Positions 18,749-57,127 of a DNA stretch of 64,000 nt are shown here, piece after piece. The translations under genes and the position numbers were made by a program. The first letter of the stretch is position 1; each line of letters begins with the position of its first letter. The DNA lies in NCBI RefSeq assembly GCF_019655855.1, contig NZ_BPFX01000020.1:49504-113503 (forward strand). The letters run 5' to 3'. The stretch is from Pseudomonas paralcaligenes (GTDB lineage Bacteria; Pseudomonadota; Gammaproteobacteria; Pseudomonadales; Pseudomonadaceae). Under the pieces are notes generated by a model, which made no database searches, was not told the origin of the DNA, and saw nothing but the letters and a program-made list of their open reading frames with translations.

Positions 18749-21235
18749 TCAGGCGGGCTCGACCGGGTCTTCCTCGCGTTCCAGCGCCACCTGGCGGATG
18801 GACAGGCGGATTTCCGCGGGCAGCACGCGCTTGGCCACGCCCTCCACCAGCTCTGCCAACTGCGGGTGGTGGCTGAGCTTGCCTTCGCCGTTCTGGCGCA
18901 GCACGCCCTGGTCCAGCAGGGTCTGGATGAAGTGGCGGAACAGGCTCTTGTCGAAGAACTCCGGGGCGTTGAGGCCGTGGAGGATCGACAGGCGCTGGGC
19001 CATCACCACGCACAGGTTTTCCAGCTCCTCGGCGCTCAGCGCGTACTGGCCGGCGTTGATCAGCAGGGCGGTGGCCATGTAGAAGCGCTGCAGGGTCTGC
19101 ACGATGGCGCGGGCCAGCAGGGTGAGCAGGACGAACTGGCGCGAGCTGGGCGCCGGGCGCACGAACATGTCGTCCTCGCGGCGCAGCAGGTCCTGCTCGA
19201 CGAAGGCCTCCAGCCACTGGTCCACGACGCCTTCCAGCTCGTCCACCGACCAGCGGATGAACAGCTCCGACTGCAGATAGGGGTAGAGCGCGGTGGAGTA
19301 GCGCAGGATCTGCTCGCGGCTCATCCGCGAGCTGCTGAGGAAGAAGCTCGCCAGCAGCGCGGGCAGGGCGAACACGTGCAGCACGTTGTTGCGGTAGTAG
19401 GTCATCAGGACGGCGTTCTGCTCGTCCAGATAGAGGATCTTGCCCAGTGCGTCCTTCTGCTCGGCCAGCAGGTCCATGCTCTGCACGTAGCGGATCAGGT
19501 CCTGGCCATCGCCGTCCGGCAGGGTGGCGTGTGGCGAGTAGGGCACCTTGCGCAGCAGCGCCAGGTACAGATCGAGCACCCGGGCCAGGGCCTTCTCGTC
19601 CAGCGCCAGCTTGCTGGTGGAGAGCAGGGCCAGGCCGACCAGGTTGACCGGGTTGATCGCCGCCGCCTCGTTGAGGTGCTGCGCCACCTGCGCGCCGAGG
19701 CGGTTGGTGGTGCGGTTCAGCCACTCGGGGCGGTACTGGTCGCCGTAGTCCTGGGTGCGCCAGCCGGGCTGCTCGGCGTCGAGGAACTCGGCCAGCTTGA
19801 TCGGCTCGCCGAAGTTGACCCGGACGCTGCCGAAGCGCTGTTTGCGGATGGCGCCGATGACCTTGAAGATGTCGAAGATCGACTCCTTCTTCTTCGCCGC
19901 GCCGCGCAGTTCGCCCAGGTAGGTGCGGCCTTCGAGCACGCGCTCGTAGCCGATGTAGACCGGCACGAAGGCGATCGGCAGGCGCGACGAGCGCAGGAAG
20001 CTGCGCAGGGTGATGGCCAGCATGCCGGTCTTCGGCTGCAGGGTACGCCCGGTGCGCGAACGGCCGCCCTCGACGAAATACTCGACCGGGAAGCCCTTGC
20101 TGAACAGGGTGTGCAGGTATTCGTTGAACACCGCGGTGTACAGCGGGTTGCCCTTGAAGGTGCGGCGCATGAAGAAGGCGCCGCCGCGGCGCAGCAGGCC
20201 GCCGACCACCGGCATGTTGAGGTTGATGCCGGCGGCGATGTGCGGCGGGGTCAGGCCGTTGCGGAACAGCAGGTAGGACAGCAGCAGGTAGTCGATATGG
20301 CTGCGGTGGCAGGGCACGTAGATGATCTCGTGGCCATGGGCGATGTCGCGCACCGCCTCCAGATGGTTGACCTGGATGCCCTCGTACAGCTTGTTCCAGA
20401 ACCAGCTCAGCACCGTTTCTAGGAAGCGGATGGCGGTGTAGGTGTAGTCCGAGGCGATCTCGTTGCCGTAGCGCAGGGCCTGTGCTTCGGCCTTCTCCTG
20501 GCTGATCTTCTCGCGCTCCATCTCCTCACGGATGGCCTGACGCACCTGCGGGCCGTGGATAAGCCCCTTGACCAGATTGCGTCGGTGCGACACGTCTGGG
20601 CCGATCACGGCAGCCTTCTGGTTGCGGAAATGTACTCGCAGGATGCGCTGCACCATGCGCAGGGTGCGTTCGCGTCCCTTGCCCTGGTCGAGCAGTTCGC
20701 GCAGGTGGATGGGCGCGGAGAACTGCACACGGGTCTTGCGCCCGAGGATGAGGATGCTGACCAGCTTGCGCAGCCGCCCGGTGACCGCCCAGGTGTCGGC
20801 GAACAGCAGCTTCCACGGGCTGGTCTCGCGGTCCGGCGACTGGCCCCAGAACACGCTGACCGGGACTATCTGGGCGTCGTCCAGGGCATTGCCATCGAGG
20901 CTGGCGAGGATGCGCTGCAGGGTGGGCGGAGCGCCGCGCTTGTCGTGGCCGCCGAACCAGCTCGGCGAGCGGGTCAGGTAGAAGAAACCGGCTGGCTCGA
21001 GCTGGCCGCCGAGCGCCACCGGCAGCACTGGGCGCGGCAGGCCGGCCTTGGTGCACTCCCTGTCCACCACCGCCAGGTCCGCCGCCGAGGGCTGCTGCAG
21101 CACATAGAACACCGGCTTGCCGCGATCCAGGCGCAGGTTGAAGGACGACTGGTTGATGGTTTCCGAGCGTACCCAGAGATACAGCAGGCGACGCAGGGCA
21201 CCGAAGGCAAGGCGGCGGAAGGGGGAGCGGGTCAT
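18749..21235 (-). CDS. plsB: Glycerol-3-phosphate 1-O-acyltransferase
   Basis: 828 residues, normal for PlsB. It carries out the first acylation of sn-glycerol-3-phosphate in phospholipid synthesis at the inner membrane. The HX4D catalytic motif ([10 protein letters not shown]) lies near residue 308, followed by [24 protein letters not shown] and [11 protein letters not shown]. Convergent with murB. In P. aeruginosa, as I recall it, the next genes are the ABC cluster found here at 32484, so the accessory island appears to sit between plsB and that cluster. Confidence 0.97.
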
Positions 21236-21442: not shown

Positions 21443-21943
21443 CTACGCCTTGGCTTCAAACGCTTCGTGGTAAGAAACAGTGCCCGTGGGGTGCGGACCC
21501 TTGAACGAAATGGCCTGGAAGTATTCTGGTGGTACGCCGGGCAGTACCAGCCCTGGGGCCACGACGAAACCGAAGCGGGAATAGTAGGCAGGCTCTCCCA
21601 GCACTACGCATCCGGATGCGCCACTGGACTGCAACTGGTCGAGTGCAGCCCGCATGAGTTGGGCGCCGACGCCTGCCCCTTGCCGTTCCGGCTGGACGGA
21701 AATGGGGCCGAGTCCATACCACCCGGCAGTACCGCTTGAAATGGTTACGGGCGATACCGCGACATGTCCAATGACCGCACCATCGTCTTCCGCAACAAAC
21801 GACACGGACAGCGCCCCAGAGTTGCGCAGTTCCCGAACAATGAACTGTTCCGTATGGTCGGTGTGAGCCGCATTTCTGAATGCTGCGGTAGTCACTGTTG
21901 CAATGGCAGAGGCGTCCGAGGGGAGCTCGCTTCGGATTTTCAT
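21443..21943 (-). CDS. GNAT-family N-acetyltransferase
   Basis: 166 residues from ATG 21943 (AGGATC ribosome site). Acetyl-CoA-binding block VQPERQGAGVGAQLM around residues 80-95 and YYSRFGF further on are typical of the YhbS-like subgroup. The substrate is unknown. It lies between plsB and the AT-rich cassette genes and has no attC-like element, so it may be an ordinary insertion rather than a cassette. Confidence 0.88.
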   Translation of the reverse strand: MKIRSELPSDASAIATVTTAAFRNAAHTDHTEQFIVRELRNSGALSVSFVAEDDGAVIGHVAVSPVTISSGTAGWYGLGPISVQPERQGAGVGAQLMRAALDQLQSSGASGCVVLGEPAYYSRFGFVVAPGLVLPGVPPEYFQAISFKGPHPTGTVSYHEAFEAKA

Positions 21944-22105
21944 GGTGCTTGATCCTGGCCAGGCTTGATTAGGCGGTGGGGTGTCTAGGTTATGTACGAA
22001 AAGTGCCTGCGCTCGGCGATGCGTCGTTAAAAATCGGTTCGGAATGCTCATTTACCATTCGTAAACTCGCATGCGAGCCCAGTCCGCTTCCTCACCGTTT
22101 TTTGC

Positions 22106-22621
22106 CTAGCCTAGCCTTCGCTCGACGACTTTTCGTACCAGAGCGGGTGAGTGAGACAGTTGGATCGGGCTGCGCTCGCCGAGGATGCGGTATATGGAAT
22201 ATACAACGGCGTATTTAAGCTCGGCCTCTGAAAGCCCGTCCAGATCGTTATTTTTCACCTTGCTTAACGAGGTCGGGGGGAGATGTACCTCTGCTAGATT
22301 TCTGGCGAAACTGGCAAGCTTGTACTCTTCGGCGCCGCCGATATCTGGTGTAACTGCTAGAGGAACTCCCAAGAGGGTACGCGCATAAAAGGAGGGGGAC
22401 ATTTCCCGTGATGTGGCTAGGTCGCCCTTGATTCCGAAGTAAAATCGATCACCCTCTGCATCCTCTAGCTCAATGGTTAGAGACCCGCCGTCAGTGAAGA
22501 CAAGGGCATCTATCGAGCTCAATGGAAAGGCAAGGCTAGGTAGGGCGTGCGCATAAAGATATAGACCCACCATGCCTGCTGGGATGGCGATTAGCGGGAG
22601 TGCTAGCCAGCTTGGTTTCAT
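22106..22621 (-). CDS. Membrane-anchored hypothetical protein
   Basis: 171 residues from ATG 22621 (AGAGGC ribosome site); a longer frame to 22663 would put a charged stretch before the helix and is less likely. One N-terminal helix (WLALPLIAIPAGMVGLYLY), then a soluble domain containing IDALVFTDGGSLTIELEDAEGD. The family is not recognised. AT-richer than the core genome. Confidence 0.65.
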   Translation of the reverse strand: MKPSWLALPLIAIPAGMVGLYLYAHALPSLAFPLSSIDALVFTDGGSLTIELEDAEGDRFYFGIKGDLATSREMSPSFYARTLLGVPLAVTPDIGGAEEYKLASFARNLAEVHLPPTSLSKVKNNDLDGLSEAELKYAVVYSIYRILGERSPIQLSHSPALVRKVVERRLG

Positions 22622-22674
22622 GCGTTGCCTCTGACGTTCGTTTTCAGGTCCCTTCGAAGGCATCGAGTTAGATG

Positions 22675-23199
22675 CTAGGGGGACGATTTCTTGAGAGATA
22701 TTTTCCCAAAGGTCATGAAGACGATAGGGCCGCCAGCATCGGCGCGATAACCTCCATTTGCTTCTGCAAGACGATTGGCGATGGCAACAAACTCCCAGGC
22801 TTCGTTCTCCGTAACCTTTATAACTCTAGTCGTGAGCTTTGGAATTCCTTGCTTTTCTCCAAAGGCCTTTATGAGTTTTGCATGCTCCTGAAGGGGAGGG
22901 CTAACGGATGGGTGATCCCAGCCCCACATAAAACTGCTATCTGCTGGGTTGTAGGTGCCGATGATCTGAACTGGGGCTGAAGCCGTTTTCCCGTCAGGAA
23001 GTATCCACCAGATGAGACCGGTATCTTGATCTACATTCCAGCGCGCAGAGCTACCTATACCCCATATTTCTTGATGGGCTTCCGTTTGTATTCTTAAACC
23101 TTCCATCGAGGAAGCGGTGTAAGTGTTCAGGTCGAATTTCTCTTCTGCATGACCCATTGCCATAAAAAACAAAAAGAATGAAGTGATAAAGGATCTCAT
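22675..23199 (-). CDS. Secreted DUF6882-like protein
   Basis: 174 residues with a signal peptide (MRSFITSFFLFFMAMGHA). The motif run TGLIWWILPDGKTASAPVQ, IIGTYNP and FMWGWDHPSV resembles the DUF6882 family, which is common in accessory and interbacterial-conflict neighbourhoods; that family link is from memory. The function is unknown. It follows the membrane gene at 23215 by 15 bases, suggesting co-transcription. Confidence 0.7.
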   Translation of the reverse strand: MRSFITSFFLFFMAMGHAEEKFDLNTYTASSMEGLRIQTEAHQEIWGIGSSARWNVDQDTGLIWWILPDGKTASAPVQIIGTYNPADSSFMWGWDHPSVSPPLQEHAKLIKAFGEKQGIPKLTTRVIKVTENEAWEFVAIANRLAEANGGYRADAGGPIVFMTFGKISLKKSSP

Positions 23200-23214
23200 G
23201 ATGTTGTCAGGCTC

Positions 23215-23625
23215 CTAGTTGTTAGATTGCTGATGGTTCACCGAAACCATGAATTCTGGGTTCGGGCCAAGCAGATGCTGCTTGGCGGCTGACGCAGCAT
23301 ACAGGGTAGTGGCCAGCAGCAAGGTGCCGCCGAGTAACGACAGCGCGAACCAGAAAGCCATGAACAGCGGTATGTCCGCGAGGTTTGGATACCGCAATAC
23401 TACAAGCCATAGTACGCAGAAGGCCAAGAGAGCTCGGCTGAACCACTTGAGTGTGTAGATCGCTCGGCGAAGCATGAATTTGCTCAGGTGCTCACCCTGG
23501 GTTGGATAGGGGCCATGCCAGTCAAGTGCTGCACGTGAAACTAAATTGTTCGGAAAGCGACGTATGAGCCAAATGGTGCTCGACAGTACCGCTACAAAGA
23601 TGGCCAGCTTTAAGTAAAAGGTCAT
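23215..23625 (-). CDS. Small integral membrane protein, unknown
   Basis: 136 residues with an N-terminal helix (FYLKLAIFVAVLSSTIWLI), then two central helices (ALLAFCVLWLVVLRY and LFMAFWFALSLLGGTLLLA). The N-terminal linker is polar. No family is recognised. It lies directly upstream of the DUF6882-like gene. Confidence 0.65.
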   Translation of the reverse strand: MTFYLKLAIFVAVLSSTIWLIRRFPNNLVSRAALDWHGPYPTQGEHLSKFMLRRAIYTLKWFSRALLAFCVLWLVVLRYPNLADIPLFMAFWFALSLLGGTLLLATTLYAASAAKQHLLGPNPEFMVSVNHQQSNN

Positions 23626-23665
23626 ACAGAATTCTAATTTTTATCAGGTGGTCTTGAAAGTTCTT

Positions 23666-24049
23666 CTATATGAATGCCTTGATATATGGAGTGAAAATGA
23701 TTGACCCAATGATTGCAGCTCCTGCGGCACTAAGCAGTACAGCTCCTGCAGCGACATCTTTGGATTTTTTGACCAAAGGATGAAACTCGGGGGAGGCTAC
23801 GTCACACAGAAATTCGAAAGCTGTATTCAAAGCCTCGGACACCCAGACGGCCATGATGGATAGAATCAAAAGGCACCACTCTAGTGTGTTTATCTGAAGG
23901 AGAAATGCGATGAAGCTGATAGCCATGGCCGCAAGAAGGTGAATCCACGCATTGTGCTGGCTTTTGAGCATTTCTGCGATGCCATTTGCAGCGTGCTGAA
24001 TGCTTCTGATTCTTCCCGTGAATGTAAAGGTTTCAGTATTGTTATTCAT
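23666..24049 (-). CDS. Diacylglycerol kinase-like (DgkA family) membrane protein
   Basis: 127 residues from the ATG at 24049; a longer frame to 24076 would begin inside a degenerate attC. Three membrane helices and the family core EALNTAFEFLCD followed by KKSKDVAAGAVLL are seen, so the active-site Glu/Asn and Asp/Lys pattern is kept. Substrate could be diacylglycerol or undecaprenol. Its composition is AT-rich and it is flanked by accessory genes, so it is an extra copy acquired horizontally rather than the housekeeping gene. Confidence 0.85.
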   Translation of the reverse strand: MNNNTETFTFTGRIRSIQHAANGIAEMLKSQHNAWIHLLAAMAISFIAFLLQINTLEWCLLILSIMAVWVSEALNTAFEFLCDVASPEFHPLVKKSKDVAAGAVLLSAAGAAIIGSIIFTPYIKAFI

Positions 24050-24074
24050 GAGGTACCACATAAGGATTATGTTC

Positions 24075-24128
24075 AAGGACAGGCTTTAGCCAGCCCCGAC
24101 GAAAAATTATCGACAGTTGAACATGTCA
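24075..24128 (-). repeat. Degenerate attC-like element
   Basis: The gap between the DgkA-like gene and the next gene contains ACAGGCTTTAGCCAGCCC, the central-stem block of the better attC sites here, but the outer cores are poor. It is probably a decayed recombination site. Confidence 0.4.
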
Positions 24129-24389
24129 TTGAGGGGGCTCGAGCCAATTAATGGGCCATCCTTCTTTTGCAGCTAACTCCACCAGCCAGTGGATCAGTTG
24201 GAGCGGTATGCCATTTTTGTAAACGTTGAAGATGGCTTTGCCATGTTCATCGTAGAAGAAAACCTCTGCTAGCACCTCAACGATTTCATCTGTTCTATCG
24301 GAGAGTTCAAGGTATATGCCATCTCTTTGCACGTCGCTTCCGAAGATGATTTCATATCTTCTACCCTCGAATGTCCTGATGCTGCTCAT
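24126..24389 (-). CDS. Cassette-type hypothetical protein
   Basis: 87 residues from ATG 24389 (GGGATCTC upstream). Acidic, soluble, with a probable two-sheet fold; the phrase VFFYDEHGKAIFNVYKNGI and a C-terminal IHWLVELAAKEGWPI stand out. No family is recognised. Bounded on the right by a good attC. Confidence 0.6.
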   Translation of the reverse strand: MSSIRTFEGRRYEIIFGSDVQRDGIYLELSDRTDEIVEVLAEVFFYDEHGKAIFNVYKNGIPLQLIHWLVELAAKEGWPINWLEPPQ

Positions 24390-24399
24390 TTTTGAGATC

Positions 24400-24466
24400 C
24401 CTGACGTTTGACATGAGAGATGGCGACCAGCTTGCCGGGAGATGCCATCTTGATGAAGGGTTAGGC
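24400..24466 (-). repeat. attC site
   Basis: Right core GTTAGGC at 24460-24466, overlapping the TAA stop of the gene to its right; inner arms AGATGGCGACC and GGAGATGCCATCT; left core reads CCTGACG instead of RYYYAAC. Its stem sequence differs from the other sites. Confidence 0.7.
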
Positions 24467-24982
24467 ATCACCGCGACCATCACTGCCCCACTGAGCTACT
24501 GCTTCCACTGGGTTTGGGAGCCTGCCCTCTAGCTCACTCTTGATCCACTCGGGATCAATGTAATTGAACTTTGACTCAATGACCCAAGCCAGAAACTCCT
24601 CTGGTCCTCCGTTCAGATATGGAGGCGGCGATACCGGCATGAACACCGTGGGTAGATTTTCCTGCATGGATATGTAGTTCAGAATGAAGCCTAGTTCCTG
24701 AATCACCTGCCATGCAAGGGAGTTTGAAATGTCTATCTCGAGCTTTACCCACCAAAATGCATCAGGAGTTGAGTGTGATGATATGACTTTTACTGCGGGG
24801 ATCCGGTTGAGAAATTCAACAAGCTTAGGAAGGCCATTTGAGACTATCGCAGGTTTGATGTACTCGATCGATGGAGTAGAGGCCTCTAGCTTTCTCACGA
24901 TGTGAGCGTGCAGAGTGCGATTGGCGTCGGATGCTTCTCGCTCTAGTGCCTTGCGAAGCTTCGATGGGAGTTCAAGTTCCAT
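24461..24982 (-). CDS. Cassette protein with ribbon-helix-helix-like N-terminus
   Basis: 173 residues. The first 35 (MELELPSKLRKALEREASD..., then HAHIVRKLEAS) look like an Arc/MetJ-type ribbon-helix-helix DNA-binding fold: a beta strand then two helices. The remaining 135 residues are an unrecognised domain rich in Trp, Pro and aromatics. Stop codon TAA lies inside the attC core, as in mobile cassettes. Function is unknown; it could be an autoregulated antitoxin-like protein, but no toxin partner is adjacent. Confidence 0.65.
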   Translation of the reverse strand: MELELPSKLRKALEREASDANRTLHAHIVRKLEASTPSIEYIKPAIVSNGLPKLVEFLNRIPAVKVISSHSTPDAFWWVKLEIDISNSLAWQVIQELGFILNYISMQENLPTVFMPVSPPPYLNGGPEEFLAWVIESKFNYIDPEWIKSELEGRLPNPVEAVAQWGSDGRGDA

Positions 24983-24987
24983 TTAAT

Positions 24988-25061
24988 GCCTAGTGTTTGG
25001 TAAAGGGCGGAGTGTAGTCGGTCCGCTTGAGTGGGTGAACGGCTTTAGTCTATTGTTGGGT
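24988..25061 (-). repeat. attC site
   Basis: Left core GCCTAGT (24988-24994), right core GTTGGGT (25055-25061), with TGTTTGGTAAAGGGCGG on the left arm; 74 bases. It closes the cassette to its right. Confidence 0.75.
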
Positions 25062-25293
25062 TGTTGTAATTAATATTTATTGTAATATCAGGTCTTGGCA
25101 TTTTTATGAGTCTCTCTAGCGTTTGGAGGAGCTAAAAATAGCTGATGATCCGTAGATGATTGGGTGTCCTCAGTAGAGATTTTATATATTCCTTGCGTCA
25201 CTAGCGGCCCGGAGTGAAAATGAGTGGATTGGCAGTGTGATAGTGATTCGCCGCGAAAGAGTTGCACCTGGCGGCAACTGAGCGCGCATGCCA
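25062..25293. other. Non-coding stretch downstream of the Sel1-repeat cassette gene
   Basis: 232 bases between an attC and the Sel1 gene stop. A 68-codon leftward frame exists but has no ribosome site and low-complexity composition. One hairpin, GTTGC-acctGGCG-GCAAC near 25261, could end the Sel1 transcript. Confidence 0.4.
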
Positions 25294-26037
25294 CTATTGC
25301 CGCTCAAAGCCGTTTTCTGTCAGCCAGTTGACGGCCCCTTCATGTCCTGCGGCTGCCCTGCGCATTAAGGTCAAAGTCTTCTCGGGATCTTTGGGAACGC
25401 CCAAACCCATTTCATACATCAGGCCAAGGTCAAAGAGCGCTTGATAGTTTTCCTGCTCAGCCGCTTTTCCGATCCAGATGGCGGCCTGCTCATGGCTTTT
25501 CTCAACACCCCGGCCGTCTTGGTACATGAGTCCAAGCATGTTCTGTGCTGTTGCGTCTCCTTGTTCAGCAGCTTTGCGGTACCACAGGGCGGCCTGTTCG
25601 TGGTCTCGTGCAACGACTTTGCCGTTTTCGTACATGACACCGAGATAGTATTGCGAAGAGGCATCCCCTTGTTCTGCAGCCTTGCGATACCAGATGAAGG
25701 CTACGGCCAGATATCTGGAGATGCCTTCCGCGTCCCCATATGATTCATATGCGTGAGCCAGCCGTCTTTGAGCGTCGACATGCCCCAAATTGGCAGCCTT
25801 GCAGTACCACGCGTAAGCCTGCGTTTTATCTTGGGCGACACCATGACCATCCTTATAAAGGATGCCAAGGTGGTATTGGGCCTCGGCGTGCCCCTGCTCA
25901 GCAGCGATTCGGAGTTGGTCGATATCGGTAGCCATAGGATCCCCTTTTTGTGCCAAAACAGGGGCGCAGATACAAACGGCGAAACTGAAAACGAGGGCTA
26001 TAGAATATGAGGGATGGGAACGGTAGAGAGAAAGCAT
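25294..26037 (-). CDS. Secreted Sel1-like tetratricopeptide repeat protein
   Basis: 247 residues. A signal peptide (SIALVFSFAVCICAPVLAQ) is followed by about five Sel1 repeats of about 36 residues with the usual AEQGHAEAQYHLGILYKDG pattern. Such proteins are helical scaffolds, often periplasmic. The nearly equal repeats leave no catalytic domain. Cassette gene, followed by an attC on its upstream (right) side. ATG 26037 is the likely start. Confidence 0.85.
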   Translation of the reverse strand: MLSLYRSHPSYSIALVFSFAVCICAPVLAQKGDPMATDIDQLRIAAEQGHAEAQYHLGILYKDGHGVAQDKTQAYAWYCKAANLGHVDAQRRLAHAYESYGDAEGISRYLAVAFIWYRKAAEQGDASSQYYLGVMYENGKVVARDHEQAALWYRKAAEQGDATAQNMLGLMYQDGRGVEKSHEQAAIWIGKAAEQENYQALFDLGLMYEMGLGVPKDPEKTLTLMRRAAAGHEGAVNWLTENGFERQ

Positions 26038-26048
26038 GATTGTCTAAT

Positions 26049-26136
26049 GCCTAATGATTAAGCTAATGGGCTGTAAAAAGCATAGCTTTTTTCTGTCTAG
26101 CGAACGTAGTGAGCGATGTTTAGTGCATTGTTAGAG
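26049..26136 (-). repeat. attC site
   Basis: Left core GCCTAAT (26049-26055) then GATTAAGCTAATGGG; right core GTTAGAG (26130-26136) overlapping the stop of the gene to the right; 88 bases. Same subtype as the site at 31467. Confidence 0.85.
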
Positions 26137-26394
26137 TTCTCCAACGATGCCGCCCCAGCTCTTGTATAGAGTTTCATTTGAGAGCACCCATTTTTTGAAA
26201 TGCATGATGGCCTCGGAGTGTGAGGTGAAAGAAGCTAGGTCAAATTTACAGCCGTGCTCGAAGTAGAAGCATTCAACTTCATTGCCGTAATTGAGAATGC
26301 AGAAGCAGCAGTCTTGGGGTATCGCATTGATGCGAATTTGCCCCATGCGGATGCCTGCAGATTTAAGTTCGTTGGCTAGGTTTGTGAATAGCAT
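26131..26394 (-). CDS. Cassette-encoded hypothetical protein
   Basis: 87 residues, ATG 26394 with AAGGATTT upstream. It contains QDCCFCILNYGNEVECFYFEHG, a Cys-rich beta-strand run, and ends in a Trp-rich helix. The TAA stop is within the attC core. No family is recognised. Confidence 0.6.
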   Translation of the reverse strand: MLFTNLANELKSAGIRMGQIRINAIPQDCCFCILNYGNEVECFYFEHGCKFDLASFTSHSEAIMHFKKWVLSNETLYKSWGGIVGEL

Positions 26395-26400
26395 GGAAAT

Positions 26401-26470
26401 CCTTAACGTGCAGGCAAGAGCGCAGCCTTTGGCTGTCCAGTGAGCGTCAAATCGAGCGCACTATGTTTCT
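26401..26470 (-). repeat. Degenerate attC site
   Basis: Left core CCTTAAC (26401-26407), central GCGCAGCCTTTGGCTGTCC stem, then TGAGCGTCAAATCGAGCGCAC and a decayed right core. The gene to its right reads through it to stop at 26403. Confidence 0.6.
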
Positions 26471-26723
26471 TCGCTACGAGGAGACCAAGGCTTGATCTGG
26501 TGGCCCAGTTGGGACTCAATGCTCCAGTTTTCAGGCCTGAAACCAGGCTTGAATAATTTGAAACCGGATGAAGCCCAGCTTTGATAATAGAGCCATGGCC
26601 ATGCTCACAGTCGCAGTATGGGCAAATATCAAAGCAGTGGCTGAACTCTGCCGTACTCTCGTAGCCATATTGGGGCGGGCCGAACCCGCAAATTAGGCAA
26701 TGCTCTGTAGGCACTTCAAGCAT
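26403..26723 (-). CDS. Cys-rich (probably zinc-binding) cassette protein
   Basis: 106 residues. The core CLICGFGPPQYGYESTAEF followed by FDICPYCDCEHGHGS holds two CxxC-type pairs like those in a frequent class of small conflict-island proteins. The last 20 or so residues are encoded by attC sequence, so the original stop was probably lost. Function is unknown. Confidence 0.6.
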   Translation of the reverse strand: MLEVPTEHCLICGFGPPQYGYESTAEFSHCFDICPYCDCEHGHGSIIKAGLHPVSNYSSLVSGLKTGALSPNWATRSSLGLLVAKKHSALDLTLTGQPKAALLPAR

Positions 26724-26786
26724 CCTTGCTGGAGGCTTTAGCCCGTCCCAGTGAGCGAGGCAAGCGATTTGGACTATTTGCTAAAT
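26720..26786 (-). repeat. attC site with decayed left core
   Basis: GGCTTTAGCCCGTCCCAGTGAGCGA is the shared central and right-arm sequence; right core GCTAAAT (26780-26786) departs from GTTRRRY at one base. Left core not recognisable. Confidence 0.65.
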
Positions 26787-27499
26787 CGTTGCTTGCCATA
26801 GTACACGGCGGACCAAAAATTGAATCTCTTTCCCTTCGATGCGCACCAGTGTGGAAACGAATCATCTATTTCTAGGCTGGAGTATTCCTCCCAGCAGGCC
26901 AGAAGATTATTGTAATATTCCAGTTCATTTTGCATCTCAAGCTTCAAATCTCGCGAGCTCAATGTTGCGATAAGATGTTTGGCCTTCTCTAGGGACGACT
27001 TGGCATCACTAATATCTCCCAGGAATATAGACTCAGACAAATGATGGGTTTGATAGTCGATGCCACATAGTTGGGCATGAGCTATCCGGCTGATACAAAC
27101 CTCGTCTTTGGGGTCGAGCGCAAGTGCGTGCTCATAGGCAGTTATGTCTCCAGTCACATAGCCCAGCCATTTGTACGGGATTGGGTTATTGGATTCATCT
27201 GCTGCCCATCTATCCAGTACTTCTTTCAAGAATTTCATCAGTGGGTGAGCAAAGAGCTGATGTACCTCTCCGTGCGAAAAGCCTAGCGCAGACAACTCCT
27301 TCGCTATGGCTCTCTGCTCTTTCAATGGTCGCTTCTTCGCGTCTGCAACAAACTCCTTGATTGAGGAAGCAGCGAGCTTTTTAAGTCCTTGCTCTTTCTG
27401 AAGGCAGTACTTGCCGAAAAGCTCATAGCCTTTTATCGAGGCGTATTTCTCCCCAATGGATCTCAAGCCTTCAAAGTTATCTCGGTTCCAGTAGTGCAT
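26774..27499 (-). CDS. Cassette-encoded helical protein of unknown function
   Basis: 241 residues, largely helical, with TPR-like spacing in the middle (GDITAYEHALALDPKDEVCISR). N-terminus MHYWNRDNFEGL. No catalytic motif is recognised. ATG 27499; its TAG stop lies just before the attC core at 26780. Among the larger cassettes here. Confidence 0.65.
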   Translation of the reverse strand: MHYWNRDNFEGLRSIGEKYASIKGYELFGKYCLQKEQGLKKLAASSIKEFVADAKKRPLKEQRAIAKELSALGFSHGEVHQLFAHPLMKFLKEVLDRWAADESNNPIPYKWLGYVTGDITAYEHALALDPKDEVCISRIAHAQLCGIDYQTHHLSESIFLGDISDAKSSLEKAKHLIATLSSRDLKLEMQNELEYYNNLLACWEEYSSLEIDDSFPHWCASKGKRFNFWSAVYYGKQRFSK

Positions 27500-27505
27500 G
27501 ATTTG

Positions 27506-27568
27506 GGCTAATGCTTTGGTTCAGGGGGGCGTAGTGACGCGGAGCGTCCCCGGGGCCGATTGTTGGGT
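27506..27568 (-). repeat. attC site, short form
   Basis: Left core GGCTAAT (27506-27512), right core GTTGGGT (27562-27568); 63 bases, with a GGGGGGC/GCGTCCCC central stem. Confidence 0.7.
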
Positions 27569-27676
27569 TGCTAGATGGACTGATCGCTAACTTCTTTCAC
27601 GATATAACGCTTGATTGAAGTAGTTGATGTGATTTGCATTGGCTGCAAACAATAGGCGGCCGATCACTGCGATATC

Positions 27677-28588
27677 TCACCTCGCGGCCTGCAACTCGCG
27701 TGCAGACTTTGCCAATTCGATCAGTGCAGTCTTTTCCGCTTCGCCAGGCTCGACGCCGGCGGCCCAGGTGAGTTGGATGACAAGGCCGTTCTCGACGAAG
27801 CTGGTTTCGGCGCGCGGATTGCCACTCTTGCAGGTAAACGACAGTTTCGCTTCCTTGTCCAGTTCCGGTACGTCGCGGGTCTGGCAATCTCCGGCGCGCA
27901 GTACATCGGGTGAGAGGCTGCCGCGCGCCTCCATCGCAGAAAGCAGTAATACACGGGATTGCTTGTCTAGCGCCATGCAACTGTTCTCACCATGTACTTG
28001 CACCTCGTATGGCGTGCCGCCGAACAGCTTCTTCAGGCTGCTTTCGTCGAACCAGGGGCAGGTGGCTGCCTTGCGCTGCATGTCCGCGTCGTTTGCACCG
28101 CGCAGCGCGAACTGGCCGAGTCTCGAGGCGGCCTACACGTCGGCTTCTGTCACCGCACGTTGCAGGCTCAGCATGACGGTGGTGACCATGCGGTCCTTCT
28201 GCGCGGTGATCGAGGTGGTGCGCGAGCCTTGCGCGCCACCGCCCTTCGGTTCGTAGCGGAACGCACGATCACCCAAGGTTTTGACGTCCTTCATAGCATA
28301 TTCGCCGGCCAGTCCCTGCCGCATACCTTCATACACATCATTGGCATCGGCCCTGGACGATTTGAACTGTTGCATGAAGCTGATCGAATTTGGTGGCGAG
28401 CGCTTGTCGGACATAAAGGTGCAGTGGCCGACCGCACCACCGACCATCGTGTGCCAGGGCGCGAACTCGGCGAAGGCCTCATCAACCTCGGACGTCGGAA
28501 GAAAGCCGCAGTCCTCGGCGGCGTGTGCGGTGGTGGTGGCAATGATGAGGATCAGCGGAAGCAGCGGGCGAAAGGGGAAGCAGTACAT
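27677..28588 (-). pseudogene. Secreted two-domain hypothetical protein broken by an in-frame TAG
   Basis: One frame of about 303 codons is interrupted by a single TAG at 28133-28135. Upstream of it: signal peptide (PFRPLLPLILIIATTTAHA) and a domain beginning CGFLPTSEVDEAF; downstream, after 17 more sense codons, the first ATG and a domain beginning CPWFDESSLKKLF. The two domains look like a tandem duplication, each with an early Cys, an acidic strand and a second Cys (GHCTFM, NSCMAL). GC-richer than the cassettes on either side. Could still give a 151-residue truncated secreted protein. Confidence 0.7.
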
Positions 28589-29001
28589 GGAAGGGTTCCT
28601 GCAAAAATGATGGAAAGTCTTCTGGAATGGATCAGGACATGGATTCGAGGTCGTGCATGCCCATGGAGTCCTGGATCATCCCTAGCTGGATAGCCTTGGC
28701 GCAAGGCCCGTAGCGCACCCGGAGCGCTTACCCGGTTGGCTGAGAGCCTGCTGGCCGGGTGCGAAGGATGTCGCGGCCGTACCGATGAAAGATCGAGACC
28801 AGCCAGAGCGGTTAGTCGCATGGCCCCGGCATGTGTGCCGAACAAGGCCGATTGGGTGGTCTGTTCCGCCCTTAATAATTTGTCGTGATGCCGGCAGTCC
28901 AGAGCCGGTCACGCCCGGATGTGAGGGCAACATACGTGCATGATCAGCGGCTGCTGTCTGCATAAAACAGTTGGGTGGGAAGTACCTTGGAGTTGTTAGG
29001 C
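28589..29001. other. GC-rich non-coding block ending in an attC-type core
   Basis: About 400 bases upstream of the broken gene. No frame has a ribosome site and normal codon use. The block has paired GC arms (GCACCCGGAGCGCTTACCCGG against CCGGGTGCG; GGCGCAAGGCCC) and ends in GTTAGGC at 28995-29001. It could be the leader of the broken gene, an insertion-sequence remnant, or a non-coding cassette; nothing decides between these. Confidence 0.4.
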
Positions 29002-29034
29002 GGCATCCGCAGGTACGCCATCACTGTCGATCTG

Positions 29035-29097
29035 TACCTCGAGCTACAATGCTGCCAAGTGAGCGTAGCGAACGGTTTGAACACAATTTTTATCTAT
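29035..29097 (-). repeat. Half-preserved attC site
   Basis: AAGTGAGCGTAGCGAACGGTTTGAACACAATT matches the right arm of the better attC sites, but the right core is decayed (TTTTATC) and the left core unclear. Confidence 0.55.
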
Positions 29098-29451
29098 TTA
29101 CATGCGGGTTATGTCTTTATTTTGGACAATGTAAATGGTTGTGCAAATAGCTGCTGTTAGAAATAAATAGGGCTCTATTGATAACGAGAAATTTAGAATT
29201 TTTTGGTTGAGCTCGGTTGGGTTGCACTGGCCATTAGGGCATTGCATTGGGATAAATGCCATTATTGAAAATTTTGTGAGCTTTGTAATGGTGCAGAGCA
29301 TGAGAAATACGAATGATAAAAAGGCAAAAGCCGAACGTTGCCTTATTGAAAGTATTAAAGATGCAACGCCAAACAAAGAAAATCCAGTAGCAAGGACTAA
29401 CAGTTCAGGTGCAAACATTGTCATTGTGGTAGTGTATTCATTCATATTCAT
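29098..29451 (-). CDS. Cassette-encoded small membrane protein
   Basis: 117 residues with three hydrophobic stretches (LLVLATGFSLFGVASLIL, AFAFLSFVFLMLCTI, YLFLTAAICTTIYIV) and a CPNGQCNP loop. AT-rich codon use. No family is recognised. ATG 29451 or 29445. Confidence 0.65.
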   Translation of the reverse strand: MNMNEYTTTMTMFAPELLVLATGFSLFGVASLILSIRQRSAFAFLSFVFLMLCTITKLTKFSIMAFIPMQCPNGQCNPTELNQKILNFSLSIEPYLFLTAAICTTIYIVQNKDITRM

Positions 29452-29523
29452 AATGTTTGGTTAAGGGCGGCTTTAGCTGGTCCCGCAGTGAGCGATGCGA
29501 GCGACTTGAACCACTAGTTGCAA
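29448..29523 (-). repeat. attC site
   Basis: ATGTTTGGTTAAGGGCGG left arm, GGCTTTAGC centre, AGTGAGCGATGCGAGCGACTT right arm; both cores are degenerate (TCATAAT, GTTGCAA). 76 bases. Confidence 0.7.
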
Positions 29524-29927
29524 GCCAGATACGCAGCAATTTCAGGTCTTTTATGTTTTTTGGCTAGATCGTATGCAGTATTGCCCTGAGCATCCCTTAC
29601 TTCTTTTTCTGCGCCAGCTTTGAGCAGTATTTGTACAGGTTTGAGATTTGCCCGTGCAGCCCAATGGAGCGGCATCATATCGTTGGTATTCTTTGCTTTT
29701 ATATCGTGACGAACCCCAGCTGATAATAGAAAACGAATCATACTTGACCGCCCCCAGGGAGCCGCACCATGTAGCGGTGTTTCACCTGCAGCGTCGATAT
29801 GGTTAACGTCTGCTCCTTTTCTAACTAGCTGGCGGGCTTTGCGCAGACTCCCTGCCCAAGCAATAGCGTGAAGCTCTGTTTCTGCTCCGCCATCCAGTGC
29901 ATTGCCAGGTTCAAAATTTTTATTCAT
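29514..29927 (-). CDS. Ankyrin-repeat protein (cassette)
   Basis: 137 residues with about three to four ankyrin repeats: AETELHAIAWAGSLRKA, GETPLHGAAPWG, MMPLHWAARANLKP and GNTAYDLAKKHKRPE. No signal peptide. Ankyrin proteins bind partners; as a single-domain cassette the partner is unknown. The stop lies in the attC core. Confidence 0.88.
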   Translation of the reverse strand: MNKNFEPGNALDGGAETELHAIAWAGSLRKARQLVRKGADVNHIDAAGETPLHGAAPWGRSSMIRFLLSAGVRHDIKAKNTNDMMPLHWAARANLKPVQILLKAGAEKEVRDAQGNTAYDLAKKHKRPEIAAYLACN

Positions 29928-29929
29928 GG

Positions 29930-29995
29930 CTCCAACGATTAAGCTAAGGGCGACGGAGCGCCGTTCCTGTGAGTGGAATGAGAGTATTATTGGGA
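29930..29995 (-). repeat. attC site with decayed right core
   Basis: CCAACGATTAAGCTAAGGGCG on the left (same subtype as 31467), GGAGCGCCGTTCC centre; right core ATTGGGA. Confidence 0.6.
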
Positions 29996-29999
29996 AGCA

Positions 30000-30269
30000 T
30001 TACTGATGCTCCATTTCATGGGCTGCTAATGCGACACCGCTGCTGGAATGGTGCCCTGGTGAAATCTCTTTCTCTAGCTCTACCCAAGCTTGTCCGTAGC
30101 TGTCCACCTCATAGACTTCTAGAGTGAGTCCGATAAATGCTTTTATTTCCTGGAACTGTGCATCTGTAAGGTGGTTAAAATCAGCTCTCGCCAGATCTAG
30201 AATTTTTACTCGCGAGCCTACAATAACCCGCTTTCCGTTTATGTCATATGCGAACTCGGAATTTTCCAT
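30000..30269 (-). CDS. Cassette-encoded hypothetical protein
   Basis: 89 residues from ATG 30269; an in-frame GTG six bases earlier falls inside the attC. It starts MENSEFAYDINGKRVIVGS and looks like a small beta-rich (SH3-like) domain: VKILDLARADFN and LEVYEVDSYGQAWVELEKE. No family assigned. Confidence 0.62.
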   Translation of the reverse strand: MENSEFAYDINGKRVIVGSRVKILDLARADFNHLTDAQFQEIKAFIGLTLEVYEVDSYGQAWVELEKEISPGHHSSSGVALAAHEMEHQ

Positions 30270-30273
30270 GGGC

Positions 30274-30350
30274 ACCTAACGTTTGGTGAAGGAGTCGGCT
30301 TTAGCCGATTCCGAATTAGTGAGGCGAACGATTTGAGCCGTTTGTTAGGC
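30274..30350 (-). repeat. attC site, best preserved
   Basis: Left core ACCTAAC (30274-30280), then GTTTGGTGAAGGAG, central GTCGGCTTTAGCCGATTCC hairpin, right arm GAGGCGAACGATTTGAG and right core GTTAGGC (30344-30350). 77 bases; both cores fit RYYYAAC/GTTRRRY exactly. Confidence 0.92.
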
Positions 30351-30371
30351 AGTGACCGTATAGATTCGTTA

Positions 30372-30638
30372 TTAACTCTGCTTTTTGTGGCTTAAGGTTA
30401 GGAGAAGCAATATGCAAGCAAGGATGGCTACGATAAAGCTTTGCAGCCAGCCCTCAAATATTCGCGGCCATATGTCCATGGTTTTTGATGTTTCAATGAT
30501 TGCTTCTAGTTTTGAAACGTCTCGGCCCTCTTGCGCAAAAATTTCTTGAAATGATGATGAGGCAAAGTAGAGGATTTGAAATGCGGCTACTGTGGCCGAG
30601 ATTATCAGTGCTTTTAGAGTGTTTACAGTGCTTGGCAT
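30372..30638 (-). CDS. Cassette-encoded membrane protein
   Basis: 88 residues, ATG 30638 with AAGGAA at good spacing. Helices near residues 9-27 (ALIISATVAAFQILYFA) and 65-83 (FIVAILACILLLLTL) are separated by a polar loop (EGRDVSKLEAIIETSK). Family unknown. Confidence 0.65.
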   Translation of the reverse strand: MPSTVNTLKALIISATVAAFQILYFASSSFQEIFAQEGRDVSKLEAIIETSKTMDIWPRIFEGWLQSFIVAILACILLLLTLSHKKQS

Positions 30639-30651
30639 GTTTGATTCCTTT

Positions 30652-30726
30652 GCCTAAGGTTTGGGTAGGGGACGGGCTTTAACCGGTTCCGAGTGAGCGA
30701 GTCGGGCGATTTGAGTTGCTAATCAG
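30652..30726 (-). repeat. attC site
   Basis: Left core GCCTAAG (30652-30658), GGACGGGCTTTAACCGGTTCC centre, AGTGAGCGAGTCGGGCGATTTGAG right arm, right core decayed (GCTAATC). The gene to its right reads into it. Confidence 0.72.
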
Positions 30727-31095
30727 AGGTGCTGGCTTCTTTCTCATTTTGTACATCGATAAAGCTGAAATGGAAACAATAATTCCTGCCTCTAACATGC
30801 GCCCGGCCTTTGAGAAAATTTCATAGCTAACATTAAGTGAGAGCATGTAAGGTAGTGCGCCGATAGCACCTGCAATTGCAGCATAAATTAGAGGTTGACG
30901 CTTGGTGAGCCAGCCCAGTAGGAGTCCTGGGAGAATCTTTGATAAAGCAATTACTGATGGTGCTATCAAGCTATTTATTTGTTCTGCCTTTGAAAAGATC
31001 GACGGAATTAATTGAATTATGTCTGATGCAATATGCAGGCTGCCGAAAAGAGCCAATGTGGTAGTGGTGGTAAGCGCTATTGGATGCAGCCACAT
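30679..31095 (-). CDS. Cassette-encoded membrane protein reading into attC
   Basis: 138 residues from ATG 31095; the frame is open further upstream but through the attC. Hydrophobic helices include ALTTTTTLALFGSLHIA, LIAPSVIALSKILPGLLLG and YAAIAGAIGALPYMLSL. The last 15 or so residues (NSNRPTRSLGTG) are attC-templated, implying loss of the original stop. Family unknown. Confidence 0.6.
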   Translation of the reverse strand: MWLHPIALTTTTTLALFGSLHIASDIIQLIPSIFSKAEQINSLIAPSVIALSKILPGLLLGWLTKRQPLIYAAIAGAIGALPYMLSLNVSYEIFSKAGRMLEAGIIVSISALSMYKMRKKPAPLISNSNRPTRSLGTG

Positions 31096-31106
31096 AATTT
31101 CTAGTC

Positions 31107-31178
31107 TTCTAATAGGCCAAGGAGCGGCGTAACGCCGTTCCAGTGAACAAAGTGAGCTCTTTGAGCGCACTGTTAGGC
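31107..31178 (-). repeat. attC site
   Basis: Left core TTCTAAT, GGAGCGGCGTAACGCCGTTCC central hairpin, right core GTTAGGC (31172-31178) containing the barstar gene's TAA stop. 72 bases. Confidence 0.8.
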
Positions 31179-31460
31179 ATAAATCACTTCGCTTGCCAGT
31201 TGCGGATATTCACTCTGCATTTCGCTAAGGCATTCTTTTAGTAGTGCTGCCTCACGAGGTAACCGTTGAGAGAACTGTTGCCAGCTCAAGAGCTTAACTC
31301 TATGTGGCATTTCAACCAAGCCTGTAATGGAGTCCCAAAAAGCATCCCAGTTAGCGCCATACCAGGCTGGAAAGCTCAGCGATTTCATCAGCGCCGAGTG
31401 CAGGTCTTCTACACTAGCAATAGCTTGGAGGTCGATTTCTATGAGCTGGACGCGGGGCAT
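31173..31460 (-). CDS. Barstar-family ribonuclease inhibitor (cassette)
   Basis: 95 residues, the usual barstar length. The core FPAWYGANWDAFWDSITG and the preceding LIEIDLQAIASVEDLHSAL match the barstar fold, in which this region plugs a barnase-type RNase active site. No barnase-like gene is adjacent on either side. ATG 31460; stop TAA lies in the attC core, so it is a typical one-gene cassette, an orphan immunity gene or one with a host regulatory role. Confidence 0.88.
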   Translation of the reverse strand: MPRVQLIEIDLQAIASVEDLHSALMKSLSFPAWYGANWDAFWDSITGLVEMPHRVKLLSWQQFSQRLPREAALLKECLSEMQSEYPQLASEVIYA

Positions 31461-31466
31461 TTTTTT

Positions 31467-31555
31467 GTCTAACGATTAAGCTAATGGGTAGCCCAAGGCG
31501 TAGCTATTGGGCGTTCTAGGTGAGCAAGGCGAGCGACTCGAGCCAATTGTTAGGC
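31467..31555 (-). repeat. attC site
   Basis: Left core GTCTAAC (31467-31473) followed by GATTAAGCTAATGGG, central AGCCCAAGGCGTAGCTATTGGGC, right arm GCGAGCGACTCGAGCC and right core GTTAGGC (31549-31555). 89 bases, both cores canonical. Confidence 0.92.
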
Positions 31556-31607
31556 GCTTTTGCTATTGTCTAGCTTGGCTTCATGTTGTAGTTGTAGTTG
31601 CTGATTT

Positions 31608-31892
31608 TTACCCTGCATTTCTTGATGCCCTCCAGTCCTCCAGTTCTTGCTCAACAGATTCAAGAAGCTCTACATCATCTATCCACGGGATTATCCAGTG
31701 TCGTTTCAAGTGATCGATATTGTACGAATAGAGCATTCCTTTGCTTTCAAGAATAGAGACCATTTTCTCCCTGTCTCTTTTGTCCTCGAAATTGTATGAC
31801 CGAGGTGGCGCTTTGTTGATCTGGCTAGTAGTTAGTGCGATTAATGCGGCTGAAGCAAATCCAATAAGGTAGGAGATTACATGCTTTTTCAT
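31608..31892 (-). CDS. First surviving cassette: membrane-anchored hypothetical
   Basis: 94 residues. An N-terminal helix (VISYLIGFASAALIAL) is followed by a soluble, charged C-terminal part (DKRDREKMVSILESKG, VELLESVEQELEDWRA). No family recognised. It is the cassette nearest the integrase remnant. ATG 31892. Confidence 0.6.
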   Translation of the reverse strand: MKKHVISYLIGFASAALIALTTSQINKAPPRSYNFEDKRDREKMVSILESKGMLYSYNIDHLKRHWIIPWIDDVELLESVEQELEDWRASRNAG

Positions 31893-31898
31893 GTATAT

Positions 31899-31950
31899 GC
31901 CTAACGGGCAGGTTAAGGGGGCCCGCGAGCGTAGCTTGGGGGCGCCTAGA
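31899..31950 (-). repeat. Half attC at the integrase junction
   Basis: Left core GCCTAAC (31899-31905) and GGTTAAGGGGGCC resemble the left arm of an attC, but no right arm or right core follows; instead the sequence passes into integrase code near 31950. Alternatively it could be part of attI. Confidence 0.6.
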
Positions 31951-32320
31951 GTGAGGCGACAATGTACCCATGCGCACTGGCACGCAAGTATCCGAATACG
32001 GCAACGGAGTTGGGGGCAGTTTATCCTCCCATCGGTAAATCGTTCGCGTGATCCCCGTAGCCACGAGGATATTTCGCCACCACCTGCACGAGAAGACCAT
32101 CCAGCGAGCTGTGCGCGAGGCGGCGCGGCGTGCGGGTCTTATCAAGCATGCAACGCCTCATTCGTTGCGCCATTCCTTTGCGACACATCTGTTGAAGGCC
32201 GGCCAGGACGTTCGTACCGTGCAGGAGTTGCTGGGGCACTCGGGCGTGAAGACGACCATGATCTATACCCATGTGCTTAATCGGGGTGGTCTGGTGGTTC
32301 TGAGCCCGCTCGATCGCTGA
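31951..32320 (+). pseudogene. intI: Integron integrase IntI, C-terminal remnant with two frameshifts
   Basis: Integrase-like code runs through three frames in turn: CALARKYPNTATE (from about 31968), then [17 protein letters not shown] (from 32011), then [19 protein letters not shown] to the stop at 32318-32320. The last part has [39 protein letters not shown] and the SPLD ending typical of IntI: it keeps the second catalytic Arg, the LGH histidine and the Tyr nucleophile. About the first two thirds, with the first catalytic Arg, are missing. Not functional. Confidence 0.88.
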
Positions 32321-32483
32321 GTGTGATATTCCATTTACTCCATATTTCAGCTGGCCACTGAACTTTTTCGCTGTGCTACTGTCTTGCCCTCGTCCGGGAA
32401 CGTGCTGTTGCCCGGCGGTATTGCGGTCTGCGCCCCTTCGGCGATTTCGCTGGGCGCAGGCGCTTTCGCGACGGTGAGAGGCC

Positions 32484-33404
32484 ATGATCGAAATAAGAAA
32501 CCTGACCAAGCGTTTTGCCCATCACACGGCCGTCGACGGCCTCAGTTTCCAGGTCCGGCAGGGAGAGGTGCTGGGCTTTCTCGGTCCCAACGGGGCTGGT
32601 AAATCCACCACCATGAAGATGCTCACCGGGTTCCTGGCGCCGACCTCCGGCACGGCCAGCATCCTCGGCTTCGACATCCAGACCGACACGCTCAAGGCCC
32701 AGCGGCAGATCGGCTACCTGCCGGAAGGCGCGCCCTGCTATGGCGACATGACGGTGCGTGGTTTTCTCGAGTTCATCGCCGAGGTGCGTGGCTTCCGCGG
32801 CGCCGAGAAGAAGCAGCGGGTGCAGCGTGCGGTCGAGCAGGTGGAGCTGCAGAAGGTGCTCGAGCAGAGCATCGAGACGCTGTCCAAGGGCTTCAAGCGC
32901 CGTGTCGGCCTGGCCCAGGCCATCCTCCACGACCCGAAGGTGCTGATCCTCGACGAGCCCACCGACGGCCTCGACCCCAACCAGAAGCACCAGGTGCGCC
33001 AGCTGATCCAGAGCCTGGCCAGGGACAAGATCGTGATCATCTCCACCCACATCCTCGAAGAGGTCTCCGCCGTGTGCACCCGCGCCGTGGTGATTGCTGC
33101 CGGCAAGGTGGTGGCCGACGGTACGCCACTGGAGCTGGAGAGCCGTTCGCGCTACCACCAGGCGGTGACCCTGGTCGCCGAGGGCGAGCTGGACCGCGCC
33201 GCCCTGGCCGCGCTGCCGGGCGTGGCCGGCGTGGAGGACAACGCCGAGGGCAGCCTGACCCTGCTGGCACGGCCGGGCGAGGTGATCTTCCCGCAGGTCA
33301 ACGAACTGATCCGCCAGCGCGGCTGGCACGTGAAGGAGCTGGACGTGGAGCGCGGCCGGCTCGACGAGGTGTTCCGCAGCCTGACCCGGGGGGAGGCGGC
33401 ATGA
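32484..33404 (+). CDS. ABC transporter ATP-binding protein, Gld type
   Basis: 306 residues. Walker A GPNGAGKST, signature LSKGFKRRVGLAQAI and Walker B LILDEPTDGLDPN are intact; a C-terminal accessory domain follows. With the permease and GldG-like protein next to it, this forms a transporter of the type first known from gliding motility; in Pseudomonas the substrate is not established. Overlaps the permease gene by 4 bases (ATGA). Confidence 0.92.
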   Translation: MIEIRNLTKRFAHHTAVDGLSFQVRQGEVLGFLGPNGAGKSTTMKMLTGFLAPTSGTASILGFDIQTDTLKAQRQIGYLPEGAPCYGDMTVRGFLEFIAEVRGFRGAEKKQRVQRAVEQVELQKVLEQSIETLSKGFKRRVGLAQAILHDPKVLILDEPTDGLDPNQKHQVRQLIQSLARDKIVIISTHILEEVSAVCTRAVVIAAGKVVADGTPLELESRSRYHQAVTLVAEGELDRAALAALPGVAGVEDNAEGSLTLLARPGEVIFPQVNELIRQRGWHVKELDVERGRLDEVFRSLTRGEAA

Positions 33405-56991: not shown

Positions 56992-57127
56992 TATAAAACG
57001 CGCCGCTTTACGGGCAGTAGGCCCGCAGAGCCTAACCCGCACACGTATCGACACGATTTCCTGGGTGCCCGCAAGGGTTGGAGATTGGGATGCGTGGAGG
57101 CCTAACCCGACTTATCAAGGAACTATC
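56992..57127 (+). promoter_or_regulatory. rpsB promoter and leader
   Basis: -10-like TATAAA at 56992-56997 (weak -35). The following 130-base leader is long enough and GC-rich enough to hold the S2 autoregulatory structure known for rpsB mRNA in gammaproteobacteria; the fold was not computed. Confidence 0.5.

Follow-up and report, generated by a model that had tools for sequence, protein, structure and literature searches.

The chromosomal integrons studied in Pseudomonas, of the P. stutzeri, P. alcaligenes and P. mendocina types, have a working intI. Loss of this gene is also on record: the accessible text of a 2008 survey places nearly one third of intI genes among the pseudogenes and interprets loss as a common process (PMC2426708), and the available part of a study in Acinetobacter baylyi reports that an active class 1 integrase lowered fitness and was lost through frameshift within 30-42 days of serial transfer (PMC3510236). 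Frequent intI pseudogenes, large intI deletions in Xanthomonas, an integrase fitness cost and the view of CALINs (clusters of attC sites lacking an integron integrase) as degraded integrons are likewise found in accessible portions of the literature (PMC2426708, PMC12444791, PMC3108266, PMC3510236, PMC9024848, PMC3607928). Nothing on the present locus or on an integron at plsB was found among the papers listed by a literature search that had most subscription journals outside its reach.

The DNA analyzed here (the window) is the whole 64,000-nucleotide stretch from Pseudomonas paralcaligenes, and it very probably contains a dead sedentary chromosomal integron, or CALIN, located between plsB and an ABC transporter gene, in which a single illegitimate deletion would have joined the middle of an attC site to about codon 205 of intI. 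The intI remnant (31968-32320, forward strand) carries IntI codons ~205-321 spread over three frames; of the ~321 codons of a complete integron integrase gene, ~116 remain at the 3' end and ~205 are missing. Its longest open piece (32048-32320, forward strand; 90 residues from a GTG start) was found to match the integron integrase profile TIGR02249 at 145 bits (3.2e-42, profile positions 229-314 of 315) compared with 89.8 bits for XerC and 83.7 bits for XerD, and an Xer-like or phage recombinase was rejected on these scores. The same match lies below the TIGR02249 cut-off of 265, covers only the end of the profile and belongs to code divided among three frames, which is not what a full-length IntI would give. 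The first-pass annotation had described IntI-like code in three successive frames with the Tyr nucleophile kept and the first two thirds of the gene missing, and all of this was confirmed, including: (i) a frame 1 segment from 31974 (GCA CTG GCA CGC AAG...); (ii) a 17-residue IntI-like segment in frame 2; (iii) a frame 3 segment, RHHLHEKT...SPLDR and the stop, ending at 32320; and (iv) the tyrosine, within IYTHV. Alignment of the DNA with the intI of four relatives (G247, G062, G176, and G201; our genome labels) placed a 2-base loss near 32014, within a G run (32010-32016), and a 1-base gain near 32059 (32057-32062), both on the forward strand and both within ~90 bases of the remnant's left end. 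An extra 1-base gain near 31970 is possible if the intI homology extends left to 31960.

The open piece keeps the H-x-x-R box together with the Tyr, and lacks the box-I Arg and the core-binding domain. The GAGLRLLE segment in the intI of relatives, which we take to be the box-I Arg segment, falls before codon ~205 and hence is absent here. An active tyrosine recombinase has both catalytic Arg residues and the core-binding domain, and in this locus everything before codon ~205 is gone. A protein without the core-binding domain and the box-I Arg should not recombine, and the remaining IntI protein is thus predicted to be incapable of recombination. The genome itself, a draft of 351 contigs scored 100% complete, has no TIGR02249 match above the cut-off of 265 that would represent a second integron integrase; the remnant ranked first (140.9 bits), followed by a match of 84.8 bits in an Xer-sized ORF. 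The front of intI was also not found elsewhere in this genome, the matches to the front of TIGR02249 being of 38.6 bits or less and located in Xer-sized ORFs.

To the left of the remnant is a truncated attC (31899-31955, reverse strand) that retains about two thirds of its length, including the R box (GTTAGGC), and has lost the far arm. Positions 31898-31955 were found to be 81-82% identical to two complete attC sites of genome G147, a match that stops at 31955 with AGTGAG as its last bases; the truncated site scored just 9.6 bits with our attC model R1. The initial description of a half attC stopping abruptly near 31950 was therefore correct as to truncation and a sudden end, but about two thirds are kept and the end is at 31955-31959. 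We also considered this site as an attI, a candidate that was rejected because it is unlike the attI of relatives and has complete attC cousins in G147. The intI homology is clear from about 31968, with the best BLAST alignments beginning at 31973, which leaves a junction of 12 bases (31956-31967) assignable to either side. As about 12 bases separate the cut ends of attC and intI, one deletion can account for both, and the proposal of a single deletion made from the letters alone stands as the simplest cause; the attI and leader of relatives are absent between the two and intI is truncated, such that a complete integron (intI, attI, and attC array) is not present. This deletion would have removed the far arm of the attC, any cassettes nearest to attI, attI with the intI leader, and the first two thirds of intI; it would have been at least about 0.75 kb in size, judging from the relatives, and would leave the array frozen unless an integrase comes from outside. 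The sequence GGCGA at 31955-31959 recurs in an attC of the same array (AGTGAGGCGA) and in the intI of relatives, and might conceivably be the microhomology behind the deletion.

Damage is also seen in further attC sites of the array (28995-29095; and 26713-26786, reverse strand, with one arm replaced), so the attC next to intI could have been truncated before the intI front was lost. A history of two or more events, with the attC losing its arm first and the intI front and attI leaving in another deletion, is nonetheless unlikely, given that the two truncated ends lie within about 12 bases of each other and a single deletion is enough. Integrases can use secondary sites, and IntI itself might have made the deletion by joining the attC to such a site within intI; however, the GTT of the R box (31899-31905), which we take to be the position where IntI cuts attC, is undamaged and at a distance of 50 bases from the junction, making an IntI reaction barely credible as the cause. 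The junction between attC and intI was absent among the matches listed from 391 other genomes (the best began at query base 84, corresponding to 31973, and one at base 78) and from a second search of 397 other genomes, partly the same ones, at E ≤ 1e-60, in which matches began at base 84 or later. This absence among the matches listed, the draft state of the assembly in 351 contigs and the location of one frameshift in a G run would all be consistent with an assembly or sequencing artefact. An artefact is nevertheless extremely improbable, as the intI front was found nowhere else in a genome scored 100% complete, and as no two repeats in the array exceed 81% ungapped identity, which makes an attC an unlikely place for a false join. 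We found no conspecific genome by which the deletion could be dated.

The same chromosomal site was examined in relatives. The array is anchored on the left by plsB (18749-21235, reverse strand; TIGR03703, 1079 bits) and on the right by a GldA-like ABC transporter ATPase gene (32484-33404, forward strand; TIGR03522, 322 bits, under the cut-off of 402.6), the latter being part of a GldA/GldF-like pair with TIGR03522 and TIGR03518 as best families, each under its cut-off. The spacer between the remnant and the ABC gene (32321-32483, forward strand) is homologous to that of G247, G062, G176, G201, and G476. The site is shared, as expected of a sedentary chromosomal integron: plsB on the left and ABC on the right were found in G201, G247, G062, AOB-7, 8O, and G476, with the order plsB, array, intI, ABC common to G201, G247, G062, AOB-7, and G476. 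For 8O, one end of plsB was visible with intI and ABC, and for S. nitrititolerans and G176 the intI/ABC side only, the G176 contig ending before plsB. A full-length intI was found in G247, G201, 8O, S. nitrititolerans, and G476, in four of which (G247, G201, 8O, and G476) both flanks were seen; an intact counterpart at the same locus, which the first-pass annotation had suggested looking for, is thus present in these four genomes, and in G247, G201, and 8O attI could also be read, within a leader upstream of intI. The distance from the attI core to the intI start codon is 134 bases in six loci and 129-131 in two. Broken copies of intI occupy the plsB/ABC site in four other genomes, one of them visible from the ABC side only, and include those with a stop at codon 219 (G062), a frameshift and stop at codon 57 (AOB-7), and a frameshift and stop at codon 165 (G176). 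In the fourth of these, G012, 12.5 kb separate plsB from ABC and contain an intI piece at about 6933-7154 of locus L166 (codons 81-156, 63% identical, one stop), and this reads as a further dead integron at the site. In G008 (L167), the 10.3 kb separating plsB from ABC gave neither an intI nor an R1 attC match.

The leaders of the relatives were found to contain a repeated hexamer. In six loci, L147 (G247), L149 (G062), L145 (G201), L053 (AOB-7), L151 (G176), and L152 (G122), the ~135 bases before intI carry 3-7 copies of GCGACA/TGTCGC (≤2 in 2000 shuffles of each), one of which abuts the intI start codon in all six; the G247 leader additionally bears the palindrome TTGTCGCGACAA, and the leaders of S. 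nitrititolerans and 8O have zero copies. IntI or a regulator may bind at these repeats.

Identity to G247 by codon position is similar for the remnant (0.94/0.95/0.60), the ABC gene (0.92/0.93/0.68), and plsB (0.89/0.91/0.73), which fits vertical descent of the remnant rather than recent import. Descent at the site is not simple, however, as G013 and G028, which of 58 other genomes from the genus come closest in plsB (96%) and ABC (93-94%), have an empty site, with 273 bases (L163) and 305 bases (L164) between plsB and ABC, respectively, and their own intI genes on other contigs. The window may represent the middle state of a loss completed in G013 and G028, or the integron may have been lost independently from, or never present in, these two.

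The two frameshifts, which may have preceded or followed the deletion, had been taken in the first-pass annotation as later events showing that the remnant was not under selection, and this claim of absent selection was not supported by the codons. In the last 83 codons, the changes specific to the window relative to six relatives comprised 17 synonymous and 4 nonsynonymous. A codon model of 15 sequences estimated an omega of 0.028 on the window branch versus 0.038 in the background. Equal omegas fit equally well (lnL −1678.2 versus −1678.1), and an omega of 1 on the window branch was rejected (lnL −1685.9; 2 delta lnL 15.6), with the optimizer run for at most 40-60 iterations. These 15 sequences were taken from 26 (the window and 25 gapless relatives, G108 having been dropped earlier for a gap); the 11 left out were G074, which is broken in this stretch, more distant sequences, and some encoding a protein identical or almost identical to that of a sequence kept, and 3 of the 14 relatives retained have a broken intI (G062, G176, and AOB-7). 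When a two-phase model was fitted, functional and then neutral, the best fit was at zero neutral time, and the log likelihood was 1.9 units lower once neutral time reached about 7% of the branch (interpolated between 5% and 10%); the unselected phase of the remnant thus spans at most ~7% of the window branch, a rough figure given the fixed topology, the short stretch, and the long branch (2.1 neutral changes per codon). Because the window-branch omega is like that of a working intI, the unselected time would be short, and inactivation looks recent when set against the divergence from the G247 group. Frameshifts alone, then, do not prove long neglect, and the codons here still bear the mark of recent selection.

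The alternative to recent inactivation, that the fragment is still constrained, is unlikely. In its specific form, this alternative holds that a C-terminal fragment of 69-90 residues, a mini-protein made by the deletion from the second half of the catalytic domain, is still produced and selected, for example as a tyrosine recombinase antagonist or a DNA-binding competitor of incoming integrases. An omega of 0.028 with no relaxation detectable is compatible with such a role, as is the opening of 90 codons, but the same omega figures are expected under recent inactivation. Short IntI C-terminal proteins also exist in the database, such as one of 78 residues from P. chengduensis that is 92% identical over 87% of the query. 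The search that returned them scored 7999 candidates of 0.55-1.75 times the query length, and the short matches are partly fragments from contig ends, so they do not show that a short IntI is kept; a match of 69 residues and 99% identity (P0012) was taken to be the window's own protein. Moreover, no ribosome-binding site was seen by eye upstream of 32048, and 3 of the 4 nonsynonymous changes (E to K, I to V, and D to G) fall at positions invariant across the other 25 gapless sequences. We consider a kept mini-protein very unlikely.

The cassette array (21443-31892, reverse strand) holds about 20 small ORFs, as picked by us on that strand, with attC sites between them. The ORF families included GNAT, DUF6882, DAGK, Sel1, ankyrin, and barstar-like proteins, the rest having no match among the Pfam families scanned. 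Comparison of 20 array ORFs with the loci of 8 relatives returned zero matches at 1e-6, and PADLOC detected nothing in 10 of the about 20 cassette ORFs. The barstar-like protein is encoded in a cassette at 31173-31460 (PF01337, 71 bits) and is possibly the product of an orphan immunity or antitoxin gene. At 27600-29060, beside the cut attC at 28995-29095, the G+C content is 59% within an array of 45-50%; two ORFs of this segment are without a Pfam match, and it looks like foreign or rearranged DNA. Rfam at gathering thresholds identified in the window t44 RNA only (RF00127, 69 bits; 57020-57106).

An early attC scan by box pattern and folding was dropped, having returned one true attC and one chance match. 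The R1 model was built from ten attC sites (three from G247, two each from AOB-7, G062, and 8O, and one from the window), and it favors the loci that built it; S. nitrititolerans, G201, and G476 contributed none yet have sites of 93-103 bits. R1 identified six attC matches of 31-82 bits in the window array. The best kept (30274-30350, reverse strand) scored 82 bits and is itself among the ten model sequences, and a long-type attC (31467-31555, reverse strand) keeps both end boxes at 40.6 bits, a score that says little because R1 scores this type low (31.7 bits for one in G247). The GTT core is lost at 31107-31178 (ATTAGAA), 30652-30728 (CTTAGGC), and 29448-29523 (ATTATGA), all on the reverse strand. 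With no TIGR02249 match over the cut-off in the genome, these six matches place the locus among the CALINs, for which the accessible text sets a minimum of two attC sites with an integrase gene absent from the vicinity (PMC9024848), the call being made with our own R1 model rather than IntegronFinder.

Wear of the attC sites was compared among loci by the GTT core, which was kept in 2 of 6 sites in the window, 17 of 17 in G247, 10 of 11 in S. nitrititolerans, 6 of 7 in G062, and 3 of 4 in AOB-7, these counts being based on 53 of 65 attC rows, at 28.5 bits and up, with few sites per locus. The 12 rows dropped include four weak ones in the orientation of the array (8O 5505, window 24059, window 29042, and AOB-7 8673), so the fraction of sites retaining the core is probably overestimated for the window, 8O, and AOB-7. 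The worn sites of the window alone would suggest long inactivity, counter to a recent death. This is not decisive because 8O (3 of 6) and G201 (1 of 2) have a full-length intI and are also worn, and attC decay was rejected as a clock for intI loss on the same ground. If the deletion took the cassettes proximal to attI, the array that remains might be its old end. In 8O, the best preserved sites are the two attI-proximal ones (98 and 88 bits), while G062 has 108, 59, 64, 98, and 89 bits from attI outward with no clean gradient; the nine matches in G476 ranged from 66 to 103 bits.

Loss of intI is common in the genus. Among the matches listed from 298 genus genomes, at least 45 places read as IntI rather than Xer, a place being a match above 92 bits with weaker fragments beside it counted into it; 28 are full length without a stop, at least 16 are interrupted or partial, and 1 is unclear (G241). 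The 16 broken places include this window, some of the partial ones may be contig ends, and the number is a lower bound, the intI piece of G012 being outside the matches listed. A share of 16 in 45 agrees with the nearly one third of intI genes counted as pseudogenes in the accessible text of the 2008 survey (PMC2426708).

When compared with known systems, the locus shares with CALINs an attC array without a functional intI, and differs in retaining the tail of intI next to the array, which lets the mode of loss be read. Inactivated integrons have been described in Xanthomonas at ilvD; here the genus and the site (plsB/ABC) are other. The intI pseudogenes in the accessible parts of published reports are mostly frameshifts and stops, whereas here a deletion very probably fused intI to attC. 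The chromosomal integrons of the P. stutzeri, P. alcaligenes, and P. mendocina types belong to the same IntI family, and a database relative of the remnant carries the name IntIPac; unlike those integrons with their working intI, the window has a remnant only. Overall, integron death by this route has been seen before, and the present locus adds one more case, a readable one in which the deletion would run from an attC into intI, at a plsB/ABC site that allows full-length, broken, and empty states to be compared across species.
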